Source: a virus
Strand: one strand, 5' to 3'
DNA: 21,118 nucleotides
IMG/VR virus record: IMGVR_UViG_3300025732_001604
Location: 1-21,118 of that record
Shown here: positions 5,000-20,581 of the stretch, in pieces
Numbering within the stretch: position 1 is the stretch's first letter
How the letters are laid out: the number at the start of each line of letters is the position of its first letter
The notes under the pieces: model-generated
Told to the model about the DNA's origin: nothing
The model's database searches: none
The model's input: the letters and a program-made list of their open reading frames with translations, nothing else
Translations under genes and position numbers: made by a program

Positions 5000-5036
5000 A
5001 CCGACTCTTGTGCGGTCTAAATAGATCTTATATAAT
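5000..5036 (+). promoter_or_regulatory. Composite promoter for gene 45 (sigma70-like plus T4-late box)
   Basis: TTGTGC (5008-5013) and a perfect TATAAT (5031-5036) are 17 bases apart. Inside the spacer lies GGTCTAAATA, containing the late-type box CTAAATA (5017-5023). Just upstream, ACCG (5000-5003) can pair with CGGT (5013-5016) and AC with GT around one bulge, giving a small hairpin right behind the gene 43 stop. The gene could therefore be transcribed both early, by host polymerase, and late, which would suit a clamp also used for late transcription as in T4. Confidence 0.6.
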
Positions 5037-10982: not shown

Positions 10983-11972
10983 ATGTCAAAAACAATCATT
11001 ATCACAGGTGCCGCCGGTTATGTAGGCGGACATACTGCCTTACGATTCAAAGAAGCCGGATATACTGTAATTGGCGTAGATAGAGCAATAACTATTCCTG
11101 CTGCTATAGAACACTTAGATGAATTTCTTTGTACAGACTTTGTGGACATAGTAGATTACTGTGCTCCGCTTAGAGAAGCCGGTGCTATTATTCATTGTGC
11201 AGGTACCAGTCTAGTGGGGCCTAGCCTATCCAATCCAGGTGAATACTACAATAACAATACTGCCAAAACTAATCGCATGTTGGCGTGGCTAGCCGATAAA
11301 GGTTGGGCAGGTAGTATTATTTTCAGTAGCTCGGCTGCTATATACGGTAACTATGCTCATTGTCCTATTGCTGAATCATCAGCATATAAGTCTACACCTA
11401 TTAATCCTTATGGTTGGTCTAAGTTAATGACCGAACGTGTCATAGCAGACCACTGTAATGCACATGGGTTTCGTGGTATCAGTCTGCGGTATTTTAATGC
11501 CGCTGGTTGTGATCCCGAAGGTAGAATGGGTTGTGCTCAAGATGGCACTCACCTAGTTACTCGTATCGTAGATGGTACTCTAAGTGGCAACGAAATTGTT
11601 ATTTTCGGTAACGATTATGATACTAGAGACGGGACCTGTGTACGCGACTACATTCATGTATCAGACCTAGCCGATGCTCATTTAGAAGCAGTATGTTTGG
11701 CAGAAGGCATGAAGACCGGAGAACATCGTAGTTATAACTTAGGCACAGGGCGTGGATACAGTAATCGAGAAGTTTTAGAACAAGTTGCTGCCTATGCTGG
11801 TACTAAGTTAAATTGGCGGTTTGGTCCAAGGCGTGAAGGGGATCCTGATCAACTATATGCAGATCCACGTAGGTTCATGCAAGATACAGCCTGGCGGCCA
11901 AGTCATAGTAGCATAGCCGATATCGCTAGTACAACATTTAATTGGATGAAAAAAACCTATTATAACAATTGA
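10983..11972 (+). CDS. galE: UDP-glucose 4-epimerase family (GalE)
   Basis: An extended short-chain dehydrogenase of 329 residues, the normal size of GalE. The NAD-binding motif GAAGYVG (9-15) follows the first strand. The active-site serines are in SSSAAIYG (115-122), and the catalytic pair Y143-x3-K147 lies in YGWSK. FNAAGCDPEG (171-180) and GTCVRDYIHVSDLADAH (217-233) are typical of UDP-hexose 4-epimerases. It would interconvert UDP-Glc/UDP-Gal or their N-acetyl forms. It lies between a glycosyltransferase and the folE/queD/queE genes, so it may feed a sugar onto DNA or the virion. GGAGG precedes ATG 10983. Its stop codon TGA is part of the -35 box TTGACA of the next promoter. Confidence 0.9.
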   Translation: MSKTIIITGAAGYVGGHTALRFKEAGYTVIGVDRAITIPAAIEHLDEFLCTDFVDIVDYCAPLREAGAIIHCAGTSLVGPSLSNPGEYYNNNTAKTNRMLAWLADKGWAGSIIFSSSAAIYGNYAHCPIAESSAYKSTPINPYGWSKLMTERVIADHCNAHGFRGISLRYFNAAGCDPEGRMGCAQDGTHLVTRIVDGTLSGNEIVIFGNDYDTRDGTCVRDYIHVSDLADAHLEAVCLAEGMKTGEHRSYNLGTGRGYSNREVLEQVAAYAGTKLNWRFGPRREGDPDQLYADPRRFMQDTAWRPSHSSIADIASTTFNWMKKTYYNN

Positions 11973-11997
11973 CACAGCGGTCTAAATACATTACACT
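11969..11997 (+). promoter_or_regulatory. Composite promoter for folE (sigma70-like plus T4-late box)
   Basis: A perfect TTGACA (11969-11974) and TACACT (11992-11997, 4 of 6) are 17 bases apart. The spacer contains GGTCTAAATA with CTAAATA at 11982-11988. The same 10-base string in a 17-base spacer occurs before gene 45. This suggests a dual early and late promoter. Confidence 0.6.
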
Positions 11998-12038: not shown

Positions 12039-12776
12039 TTGAATCACAATCAACAACTAGTAGAAGAAGCACCTTACCATCCTGGCTATGAAGGTGCTGT
12101 ATTTGGTAGACCCATGAGCGAAGTAATTCGTGACAGGATCCGCCAAGCAGGAGCCAGATTCCACGCTAACGACAACATCGCAGACTACATCAACAGCGAC
12201 GAAGAAATCAATCGCTTGGTTGATGAGGTCGCTGGTCAATTTCAGGGTGTACTAAATAGTTTAGTAATCGACACTGTTAATGATCATAACACGCAAGACA
12301 CTGCAAGGCGTGTGGCTAAGATGTTTGTACGTGAGACTTTTAGTGGACGGTATCGTTCAGTTCCTAAAGTCACAGCATTTCCCAACTTGGGCTATAAAAG
12401 CCTTTATACCACAGGACCAATTAGTATCAGATCAACATGCGCTCACCATTTTCAAAATATCGTTGGACGATGCTGGGTGGGGATAGTGCCCGAAGGCGAA
12501 GTAATTGGTTTGAGCAAATTCAACAGGCTCGTGCATCACATCTGCGAGAGACCGCAGATCCAGGAGGAAATGACCACACAGATTGCGTCTGCACTCCGCG
12601 ACTATGCTCGGACCGAAAATATTGCCGTCGTAGTGAAAGCTGAACATCATTGCATGACCATGCGTGGTGTGAGGGAGCATGAGAATGACATGGTTACTGC
12701 TATCATGTTAGGTGCTTTTGAAACAGACCAAGCACTAAAGAAAGAGTTTTATGACATACTAAAACTTAATCGTTAA
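12039..12776 (+). CDS. folE: GTP cyclohydrolase I (FolE)
   Basis: This enzyme makes dihydroneopterin triphosphate from GTP, the first step towards 7-deazaguanines (and folate). The catalytic core is complete: STCAHH (C134, H136, H137) and HHCMTMRG (C205) provide the zinc and active-site residues. GLSK (157-160) and RPQIQE (171-176) are family hallmarks. The start is a TTG at 12039 with GGAGA (12029-12033) at good spacing. The first in-frame ATG (12114) would lose 25 residues and has no comparable site. In this window it would feed QueD and QueE and finally DpdA. The N-terminal ~65 residues are an extra helical region, as is common in FolE. Confidence 0.95.
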   Translation: MNHNQQLVEEAPYHPGYEGAVFGRPMSEVIRDRIRQAGARFHANDNIADYINSDEEINRLVDEVAGQFQGVLNSLVIDTVNDHNTQDTARRVAKMFVRETFSGRYRSVPKVTAFPNLGYKSLYTTGPISIRSTCAHHFQNIVGRCWVGIVPEGEVIGLSKFNRLVHHICERPQIQEEMTTQIASALRDYARTENIAVVVKAEHHCMTMRGVREHENDMVTAIMLGAFETDQALKKEFYDILKLNR

Positions 12777-12790
12777 AAGCTGGATTTTGC

Positions 12791-12829
12791 GACATGACAA
12801 CTAAATATATTATAGGAGGTTGTCATGTC
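12791..12829 (+). promoter_or_regulatory. Late promoter inside an inverted repeat that covers RBS and start codon
   Basis: GACATGACAAC (12791-12801) is the exact reverse complement of GTTGTCATGTC (12819-12829). The interval holds CTAAATA (12801-12807) and the ribosome site TAGGAGGT (12813-12820). The right arm contains the ATG (12825) of the homing endonuclease. RNA that reads through from folE can fold and hide the ribosome site and start codon. A late transcript starting near 12813 would lack the left arm and be free. Confidence 0.75.
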
Positions 12830-13679
12830 AAGTTACTTTTATATTATTCAGTTTGTATTGACAAAACAATATTACGCAGGTAGTAGATATACCAAACGAT
12901 TAAATGAGAATAGTATCAAGAATGATCTTTGGCACAGGTATTTTACTTCATCGAAACTAGTCAAAATGCTCATTAAAAAATTTGGTAAGGAATCTTTTGT
13001 AATTAAAAAAATAAAAATTTTTCAAGATCAAGATAGCGCCAAGATTTACGAAACGCGATTTCTAAAAAAAATTAATGCAAAACTAAACCCTAAGATGCTA
13101 AACCAATCTAACGCAGTATTTGAAAATGCTCCTGAATTACAATGGATCACTGATGGTATTGTTAGCACTATGATTCCAAAAGGCAAGCCTCTAATTCCAG
13201 GTTTTAGATTAGGCAGAACACAAAATCCTAAAAAAATTACCAAATCTAGAGGACCCAAAAACAAAACTCATGTTATCGATATTAACACTAACAATCACAT
13301 TATGATTCCAAAAGATGAATTCGACCCTTTACTTTACCGTAGGCCGAATCTAGCACATAACAAAGATAGAATTTGGATTTATAACGCACTAACAAACGAA
13401 TCAAAAATTGTGAAGAATTTAAGTGAAATCCCGCCTGGTTGGCATAAAGGTAACCCTCGTAGAAAGAGTAGCGTTTGGTATCATGATCCTATTACCCAAG
13501 TTAATTACCAAGTAAAAGACGGTGATGATCCCTTACCTAATCTTAAAAAAGGAAGATTTTACCCATTTGCTTGGTACACTAATCCGTTAACAAATGAAAA
13601 TATTTTGTGTAAAATAACTGATAATCCGCCCAATGGATTTATCAAAGGAAGAAACTTATCAATGAAAGGACATGGATAA
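12825..13679 (+). CDS. GIY-YIG-like homing endonuclease with tandem DNA-binding repeats
   Basis: The 284-residue protein opens with a GIY-YIG-type module: YFYIIQ (4-9) and QYYAGSR (15-21) correspond to the GIY and YIG strands, R21 to the catalytic Arg and E76 (IYETRFL) to the metal-binding Glu. After about residue 100 there are Trp-led repeats near 107, 184, 218 and 250, plus a weaker one near 150. Each has a [DN]-G/P-x-T turn and a P..GW/F..G end, spaced 32 to 34 residues from 150 on. Such repeats are typical DNA-binding tails of phage homing endonucleases. The gene is clearly more A+T- and Lys/Asn-rich than its neighbours, pointing to a mobile free-standing element. Strong GGAGG precedes the ATG. 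Its TAA overlaps the next ATG by one base. Confidence 0.75.
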   Translation: MSSYFYIIQFVLTKQYYAGSRYTKRLNENSIKNDLWHRYFTSSKLVKMLIKKFGKESFVIKKIKIFQDQDSAKIYETRFLKKINAKLNPKMLNQSNAVFENAPELQWITDGIVSTMIPKGKPLIPGFRLGRTQNPKKITKSRGPKNKTHVIDINTNNHIMIPKDEFDPLLYRRPNLAHNKDRIWIYNALTNESKIVKNLSEIPPGWHKGNPRRKSSVWYHDPITQVNYQVKDGDDPLPNLKKGRFYPFAWYTNPLTNENILCKITDNPPNGFIKGRNLSMKGHG

Positions 13680-13990
13680 TGGCGACTAAGAAACCTGCTG
13701 CTAAACCAGCAGCCGAGCCTGCTGCTAAGAAAGCATCAGCAAAGAAGGCACCAAAAGCCGATTACCCAAAGGACGATGGTGCTTTAACTAAAAAACAAGT
13801 TAAGCAGGTTGCAGAGTCAGCACCCAAGGCTAAAAAACCTTCCAAGGTTAAGACTGAACTAGTTGAAGTCAAGCCCGAAGAACCTGGAGTATATGTAGGC
13901 AACTATAGTGTACGCACAGTTCATCCCAGTGGTAAGGTTGACTTTGCCATTGATTGGGATCGGCTCAGAGAGTACATGAAAACTGTTTAA
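13679..13990 (+). CDS. Lys/Ala/Pro-rich basic protein (103 aa)
   Basis: The start ATG 13679 overlaps the endonuclease stop (TAATG), with AAAGGA at 13665-13670. Residues 1-60 are a disordered basic tail of AKKP/PAAK repeats, like the tails of histone H1-like proteins. Residues 65-103 form a short folded-looking piece (VGNYSVRTVHPSGKVDFAIDWDRLREYM). The tail suggests binding to nucleic acid. The family is not recognised. It may originally have been transcribed from the late promoter now in front of the endonuclease; this is inference. Confidence 0.65.
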   Translation: MATKKPAAKPAAEPAAKKASAKKAPKADYPKDDGALTKKQVKQVAESAPKAKKPSKVKTELVEVKPEEPGVYVGNYSVRTVHPSGKVDFAIDWDRLREYMKTV

Positions 13991-18377: not shown

Positions 18378-18780
18378 ACGGATTTTTGGTAGCACAGAAC
18401 CGGCACCAGTGCCAATTGAGCCGGCACCTACTGAACCTAAACCCAAAAAATCTCGTGCACCCAAAGCAGAAAAAACTGCTAAGGAACTAGCCACAGAACG
18501 TGGTGAACCCTATGTCAATGTAGTCGCAGTAGAATTGGACCCAGATAACATTGGCGCTGGTGCATTTGAGCTAGACTGGAATGACAAATTCCTAGCTAAT
18601 TTGGTTAGGGCAGGCTATCAAAAACAGGCGAATGAACCCGAACATGTCATTGTCGACCGCTGGTTTCAGGACATTTGCCGTAACGTAGTTTTGGAAACTT
18701 ATGAACAAGAACAAGCCGATCCCGACCTACGTAGAATATCTCGACGCAATTTGGGTGACGGGCGTACCGAAATTAGTTGA
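18361..18780 (+). CDS. Hypothetical protein with Pro/Lys linker (139 aa)
   Basis: A GTG start at 18361 has GGGAGG (18349-18354) 6 bases upstream, and overlaps the previous gene by 17 bases. Residues 10-45 are a Pro/Ala/Lys/Glu-rich disordered linker. The remaining part is compact: ELATERGEPYVNVVAVELDPDN, then GAFELDWNDKFLANLVRAGY, then IVDRWFQDICRNVVLETYEQE. I recall similar proteins as widely shared hypotheticals of T4-like aquatic phages. No enzymatic motif was seen. The stop TGA is part of the TTGACA box of the next promoter. Confidence 0.7.
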   Translation: MKQILKRIFGSTEPAPVPIEPAPTEPKPKKSRAPKAEKTAKELATERGEPYVNVVAVELDPDNIGAGAFELDWNDKFLANLVRAGYQKQANEPEHVIVDRWFQDICRNVVLETYEQEQADPDLRRISRRNLGDGRTEIS

Positions 18781-18816
18781 CATCTCATGTCGTTAACTGC
18801 TAATATAACGACATGA
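18777..18816 (+). promoter_or_regulatory. Extended -10 promoter with 11-bp inverted repeat over the rnh start
   Basis: TTGACA (18777-18782) is followed after 18 bases by TAATAT (18801-18806), preceded by TGC as in an extended -10. TCATGTCGTTA (18785-18795) and TAACGACATGA (18806-18816) form a perfect inverted repeat. Its right arm holds the ATG (18813). Transcription would start at about 18812-18815, giving an mRNA with little or no leader. Confidence 0.65.
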
Positions 18817-20290: not shown

Positions 20291-20581
20291 ATGAGTAGAC
20301 CCAAGCCGCGTGTTATTCTAGAAAATTTGGACAAGGCCACATATAAATGTGATCAAGTCTTGGCCAGCGAAGGCATATGGGCTGTCTACTATGATGGGCA
20401 ACCTGTCAATCTAAAGACACAGAATATATTAGTAAGCTATCCTGGTCCTAAGTACCGCAAAGTCAGTTTTTCGAACCCTGGCCACGCAATCAGTCTAGCT
20501 AAAAAATTAAACACTCAATTTCGGACCGATAAATTTACAGTGGTCTTGCTTAATCAAGGTTCGGTAGTATATAAGCAATAG
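20291..20581 (+). CDS. Hypothetical protein (96 aa)
   Basis: The start follows AAGGTGG at good spacing. The protein reads MSRPKPRVILENLDK, then a compact domain with IWAVYYDGQPVNLKT, LVSYPGPKYRKVSFSNPGHA and ISLAKKLNTQF, ending in a strand VVLLNQGSVVY. I recall close relatives as conserved hypotheticals in aquatic T4-like phages. Function unknown. Its TAG overlaps the next GTG by one base. Confidence 0.7.
   Translation: MSRPKPRVILENLDKATYKCDQVLASEGIWAVYYDGQPVNLKTQNILVSYPGPKYRKVSFSNPGHAISLAKKLNTQFRTDKFTVVLLNQGSVVYKQ

Follow-up and report, generated by a model that had tools for sequence, protein, structure and literature searches.

At what stage of infection would a homing endonuclease be made when its start codon lies in one arm of an inverted repeat that also holds a putative late-promoter box? 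The question is raised by a gene in the window, the whole 21,118-nucleotide stretch analysed here, a fragment taken from the record of a T4-like phage. The present analysis suggests that this free-standing GIY-YIG homing endonuclease gene very probably carries a timing switch confining its expression to the late phase, a reading in which we infer the start site, the difference in translation and the timing. A mechanism familiar from T4 textbooks would then also apply to an uncharacterised endonuclease of uncultured phages, relatives of the large T4-like phages, and its support comes from conservation across copies, beyond a single sequence.

The endonuclease gene and its folE host

The DNA polymerase encoded in the window is closest to that of Sinorhizobium phage Phosso (51.5%), followed by those of other large T4-like phages. 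The genes and signals flanking the hairpin are as follows.

11969 to 11997, plus strand: sigma70-like promoter TTGACA-17-TACACT, 5′ of folE, with CTAAATA in its spacer (11982 to 11988)
12039 to 12776, plus strand: folE (GTP cyclohydrolase I; PF01227, E 5.5e-46; start codon uncertain), the upstream cistron and insertion host
12825 to 13679, plus strand: free-standing 284-aa gene resembling GIY-YIG homing endonucleases (PHROG 314 homing endonuclease, E 8.5e-9)
13655 to 13682, plus strand: endonuclease 3′ end (LSMKGHG and stop), differing little from the folE 3′ end in uninterrupted alleles

The endonuclease also matches PF19835 SegE_GIY-YIG (E 8.9e-5; 23.2 bits, under the 25-bit cut-off), and the same gene in G010 matches PF01541 (E 2.7e-4, likewise under the cut-off). 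Most uninterrupted folE alleles end in ...FYDICLSMKGHG and a stop. In the occupied genomes folE ends in ...FYDILKLNR or a slight variant of it, and ...LSMKGHG, encoded by nearly the same DNA, closes the endonuclease. Because the 3′ end of the endonuclease matches that of uninterrupted folE, the insertion is placed inside the folE 3′ tip: the endonuclease brought a substitute folE end with it, and its own C-terminus is the former folE C-terminus (window 12740 to 12776 and 13655 to 13682). The site is occupied in the window, L003, L005, L006, L004 and L012 and empty in L008-L010 and others. The ILKLN end of folE is also present in some unoccupied relatives (L007, L011 and L017), where it perhaps reflects loss of the endonuclease.

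A terminator scan found none on the plus strand between folE and the endonuclease gene, and the sigma70-like promoter before folE is the likely source of early read-through RNA; for both reasons read-through from folE into the endonuclease gene is plausible. The left arm of the repeat begins 14 nt past the folE stop codon, so that a ribosome terminating at folE should leave it unmelted.

A conserved hairpin over the endonuclease start codon

The start region of the endonuclease gene reads, in 5′ to 3′ order, GACATGACAAC TAAATATATTATAGGAG GTTGTCATGTC, and its elements are the following.

12791 to 12801, plus strand: left (anti-start) arm, pairing with the right arm; unchanged at all 11 positions in L004 and with a single compensatory substitution in L012
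12801 to 12807, plus strand: candidate late-promoter box CTAAATA, assigned by upstream enrichment, position peak and invariance among homologues
12813 (+/-1), plus strand: predicted late transcription start, at box start + 11 from box-ATG statistics, which would remove the left arm
12814 to 12819, plus strand: Shine-Dalgarno sequence (SD) AGGAGG, largely in the loop, its terminal GG in the stem
12819 to 12829, plus strand: right arm, holding the ATG (12825 to 12827), defined by inverted repeat, fold and conservation

The two arms match fully as a perfect 11-bp inverted repeat with a spacing of 17 nt, and the ATG falls inside the right arm, both as the first-pass annotation had described them. 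Its further statement that the arms bracket the late box and the ribosome site holds for TAAATA and most of the SD, which lie in the loop proper; CTAAATA itself overlaps the left arm by one base, its initial C (12801) being the arm's final position, and the last GG of the SD is in the stem. On folding, an additional U-G pair (12802-12818) extends the structure to a 12-bp hairpin in which AGGA is largely unpaired, and the final GG and the entire AUG are paired.

The folding energy of the 91-nt region, which that annotation had proposed comparing with shuffled sequence, is -22.3 kcal/mol against -12.9 +/- 2.7 for the shuffles, 3.5 sd below their mean, and 0 of 200 were equally stable. The computed cost of opening the SD and AUG is 15.9 kcal/mol in read-through RNA; it drops to 4.1 kcal/mol in the predicted late RNA, where a weak residual fold over the AUG persists. 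When the upstream 48 nt were shuffled with box, SD and ATG held fixed, the observed cost was reached in 6 of 2000 cases. These values support the proposals that read-through RNA from folE would hide the start and that a transcript beginning inside the loop would free it.

The hairpin is retained in diverged copies of the gene. The homologues L004 and L012, with 69% and 67% amino acid identity in the endonuclease, keep both arms, CTAAATA and GAGG, and the other loop bases and the bases 5′ of the left arm differ. In L012 the second pair has changed from A-U to G-C, a compensatory change, and in both homologues the outermost stem pair is a G-U wobble. Shifting the pairing partners by 1 to 3 columns lowers the paired fraction from 98% to 19-67%. 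Covariation support is thin because only three diverged sequences carry the hairpin, and the formal control on these three was not significant (reached by 126 of 500 shuffles). The near-identical record L003 has one stem pair broken. The endonuclease gene is intact in the diverged copies and under purifying selection (dN 0.26, dS saturated). A DNA similarity search of annotated phages returned no match, tblastn against them gave only partial 39% matches, in three records, and a profile search for more distant endonuclease copies found no contigs beyond those already found. A minus-strand sigma70-like promoter overlapping the hairpin (12831-12804) was considered and set aside: by inspection it is degraded in L004, and sites of this class are no more numerous than shuffled sequence would give.

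Perfect 11-bp repeats are not rare per 21 kb, and the window holds a second one (18785-18816). The possibility that the repeat at the endonuclease start arose by chance, or is an intrinsic terminator, gains something from that second example; it is nevertheless very improbable, given the conservation in diverged copies, a stem that no U-run follows and an empty plus-strand terminator scan. The weight of the case lies in position and conservation rather than in the repeat as such, and a hairpin with a late box and a trapped ATG at the endonuclease start is confirmed.

A palindrome of this kind could also act as DNA, as an operator at which the endonuclease or another protein represses the promoter, in the way that I-TevI acts at its own late promoter. 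Such autorepression is established for I-TevI (PMC2988022), the promoter here is likewise overlapped by a palindrome, and the compensatory change in L012 preserves the DNA palindrome as well as the RNA stem. The I-TevI operator, however, resembles its own homing site, whereas the best likeness between the promoter region here and the uninterrupted folE site is 13/20, found in 51 and 42 of 200 shuffles and not significant; nor would an operator need the AUG and SD to be in register with an arm. An operator as the explanation is thus unlikely, although operator and hairpin switch could coexist.

The second hairpin, spanning 18777-18816, has an ATG (18813) in its right arm and a sigma70-like promoter (TTGACA-18-TAATAT) with the -10 element mostly inside the loop. 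That promoter would yield a leaderless RNA of a 5′-3′ exonuclease gene, and the inner stem GTCGTTA/TAACGAC and the promoter are also found in L174, L175, L176 and L177.

The candidate late-promoter box and the predicted transcription start

Upstream motifs were surveyed in 2.31 Mb of related contigs (L092-L129, L158-L237) together with the window, 2678 genes in all. (A)TAAATA is the most enriched upstream motif in the related contigs. ATAAATA is the top upstream heptamer in long relatives (23 observed versus 0.86 expected in G005, 45 versus 2.1 in G006), CTAAATA is the top one in the window (5 versus 0.28) and is among the top heptamers in the nearest relatives (8 versus 0.52 and 4 versus 0.22), and the genes preceded by boxes include tail sheath, tail fibre and virion genes. 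Homologues of the gp55-type late sigma were found in 7 of 16 records tested, each of them a longer relative (E 1e-43 to 1e-89); gp55 is absent from the 21-kb window fragment. Enrichment, position and gene content together support the assignment of CTAAATA to the late-promoter motif class of the phage group, as had been proposed from the sequence. One of these homologues (L236:16386-18206, in G043) carries an in-frame insert, roughly 327 aa long, whose ends (CVDTDTE...LTGN, followed by T) are intein-like; Pfam returned no intein match.

The position of the box gives a calibrated late start for this phage group. When TAAATA-to-ATG distances are tallied over the 2678 genes, a sharp peak stands at precisely 11 nt (44 genes); a second class sets in abruptly at 22-23 nt. 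The 11-nt class fits leaderless RNA, which would fix the start at box + 11 and suggests that a large set of late mRNAs in these T4-like phages is leaderless; the second class would have the minimum leader length able to accommodate an SD. At 23 nt, the box of the endonuclease gene falls at the abrupt lower limit of the leadered class (27 genes), and its late RNA should therefore start at 12813, within one nucleotide, a predicted position that agrees with the start near 12813 claimed in the first-pass annotation.

Taken together, these data are consistent with the following sequence of events. Transcripts entering from folE would carry both arms and form the 12-bp hairpin, which would sequester the AUG together with the last bases of the SD, and such read-through RNA would be poorly translated. 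Once a gp55-type late sigma takes over, transcription would begin at about 12813, in the loop and beyond the left arm; the resulting late RNA would start essentially at the SD, with a 12-nt leader. The hairpin could not form on this RNA, which would be translated, and the endonuclease would be made only in the late phase.

Alternatively, the hairpin might dampen translation at all times; in that case CTAAATA would not function as a late promoter, and read-through from folE would supply the whole of the RNA. CTAAATA indeed departs from ATAAATA, the commonest box of the group, and two of its copies in the window, one before a clamp-like gene and one before folE, are embedded in sigma70-like promoters, and the box could therefore act at other times as well. 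Yet CTAAATA is invariant in a loop that has otherwise diverged, its distances to start codons peak at 11 and 23-24 as those of ATAAATA do, and in L111 it stands 24 nt ahead of a virion gene (with ATAAATA also close by), all of which makes constant dampening quite unlikely and favours the late-only switch. The CTAAATA copies in sigma70-like spacers (window 5017-5036 and 11969-11997) are conserved among relatives, where the CTAAATA/TACACT arrangement is seen again, and are possibly overlapping early and late promoters.

Recurrence in related phages and comparison with known systems

Among the genes of the related contigs (2.31 Mb), 328 are preceded by a box at a distance of 15-48 nt. A difference in opening cost of at least 12 kcal/mol was found in 11 of these 328, compared with 6 of 2350 genes without a box, for which a start at -12 was assumed (Fisher p 5e-7). 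The strongest cases include unrelated endonucleases.

L107:9460: HNH-like endonuclease, by inspection
L110:7919-8626: HNH (phrog_681)
L211:13951: NUMOD3-containing endonuclease
L110:2765-3628 and L180:1775-2404: GIY-YIG endonucleases
L176:7171: endonuclease VII; its homologue in T4, gene 49, is under the same switch

Endonucleases make up about 8 of 30 switch genes. Matches to homing endonuclease families also occur in several of the 81 genes that have a box and no hairpin, and in these contigs not every endonuclease gene has a hairpin; both observations weaken the idea that the switch is specific to endonucleases, and their enrichment among switch genes relative to other box genes is only suggestive. 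In several relatives a hairpin and late box, with different stem sequences, are also carried by a conserved protein of about 100 aa (MSRPKP...; window 20291-20581; L186:18773-19075, minus strand; L188:14430-14729; L194:13578-13871; L159:17173-17478), which has no PHROG or Pfam match where tested.

Whether the late box in a hairpin is a common module in these uncultured T4-like phages, one that arose repeatedly on unrelated endonucleases (GIY-YIG, HNH and endonuclease VII) and on further late genes, including that of the roughly 100-aa protein, beside the large class of apparently leaderless late mRNAs, is in our estimate evenly balanced. Early silencing of a mobile endonuclease may be a repeatedly favoured way of life in phage genomes.

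The mechanism itself is already known, and the endonuclease described here would add a further case with unusually good comparative support. The precedents in I-TevI, soc and e cited in the first-pass annotation follow the same logic, but the precedent is broader: the switch has been described for I-TevI, I-TevII, I-TevIII, T4 segB and Aeh1 mobE (PMC2988022) and for the T4 late genes e, soc and 49 (PMC3014915). With the same code, opening costs in read-through and late RNA are 16.1 and 1.9 kcal/mol for e, 15.7 and 5.5 for segB, 13.5 and 0.3 for I-TevII and 13.0 and 3.2 for gene 49, a range into which the 15.9 and 4.1 of the endonuclease here fall, but by this simple measure only 7.5 and 5.4 for soc; most other T4 genes tested, without a box, gave 1.8-4.2, and segF 8.7. 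T4 e, soc and gene 49 share the switch but are late genes, not mobile endonucleases. In I-TevI, I-TevII and I-TevIII the hairpin likewise contains the late promoter and the early RNA is silenced; these endonucleases are intron-encoded, whereas here no intron is seen by inspection and folE is a complete frame. Aeh1 mobE resembles the present gene in lying within a metabolic gene and in having a ribosome-binding-site-trapping hairpin and a late promoter (PMC2988022), but it is a free-standing HNH endonuclease that splits nrdA, in contrast to a GIY-YIG endonuclease at the 3′ tip of an intact folE. T4 segB is, like the endonuclease here, a free-standing GIY-YIG gene with a TAAATA box in a hairpin and its SD and AUG trapped in read-through RNA; it lies in a tRNA cluster, whereas the present gene has folE as its host, and the sequences of the two stems are unrelated.
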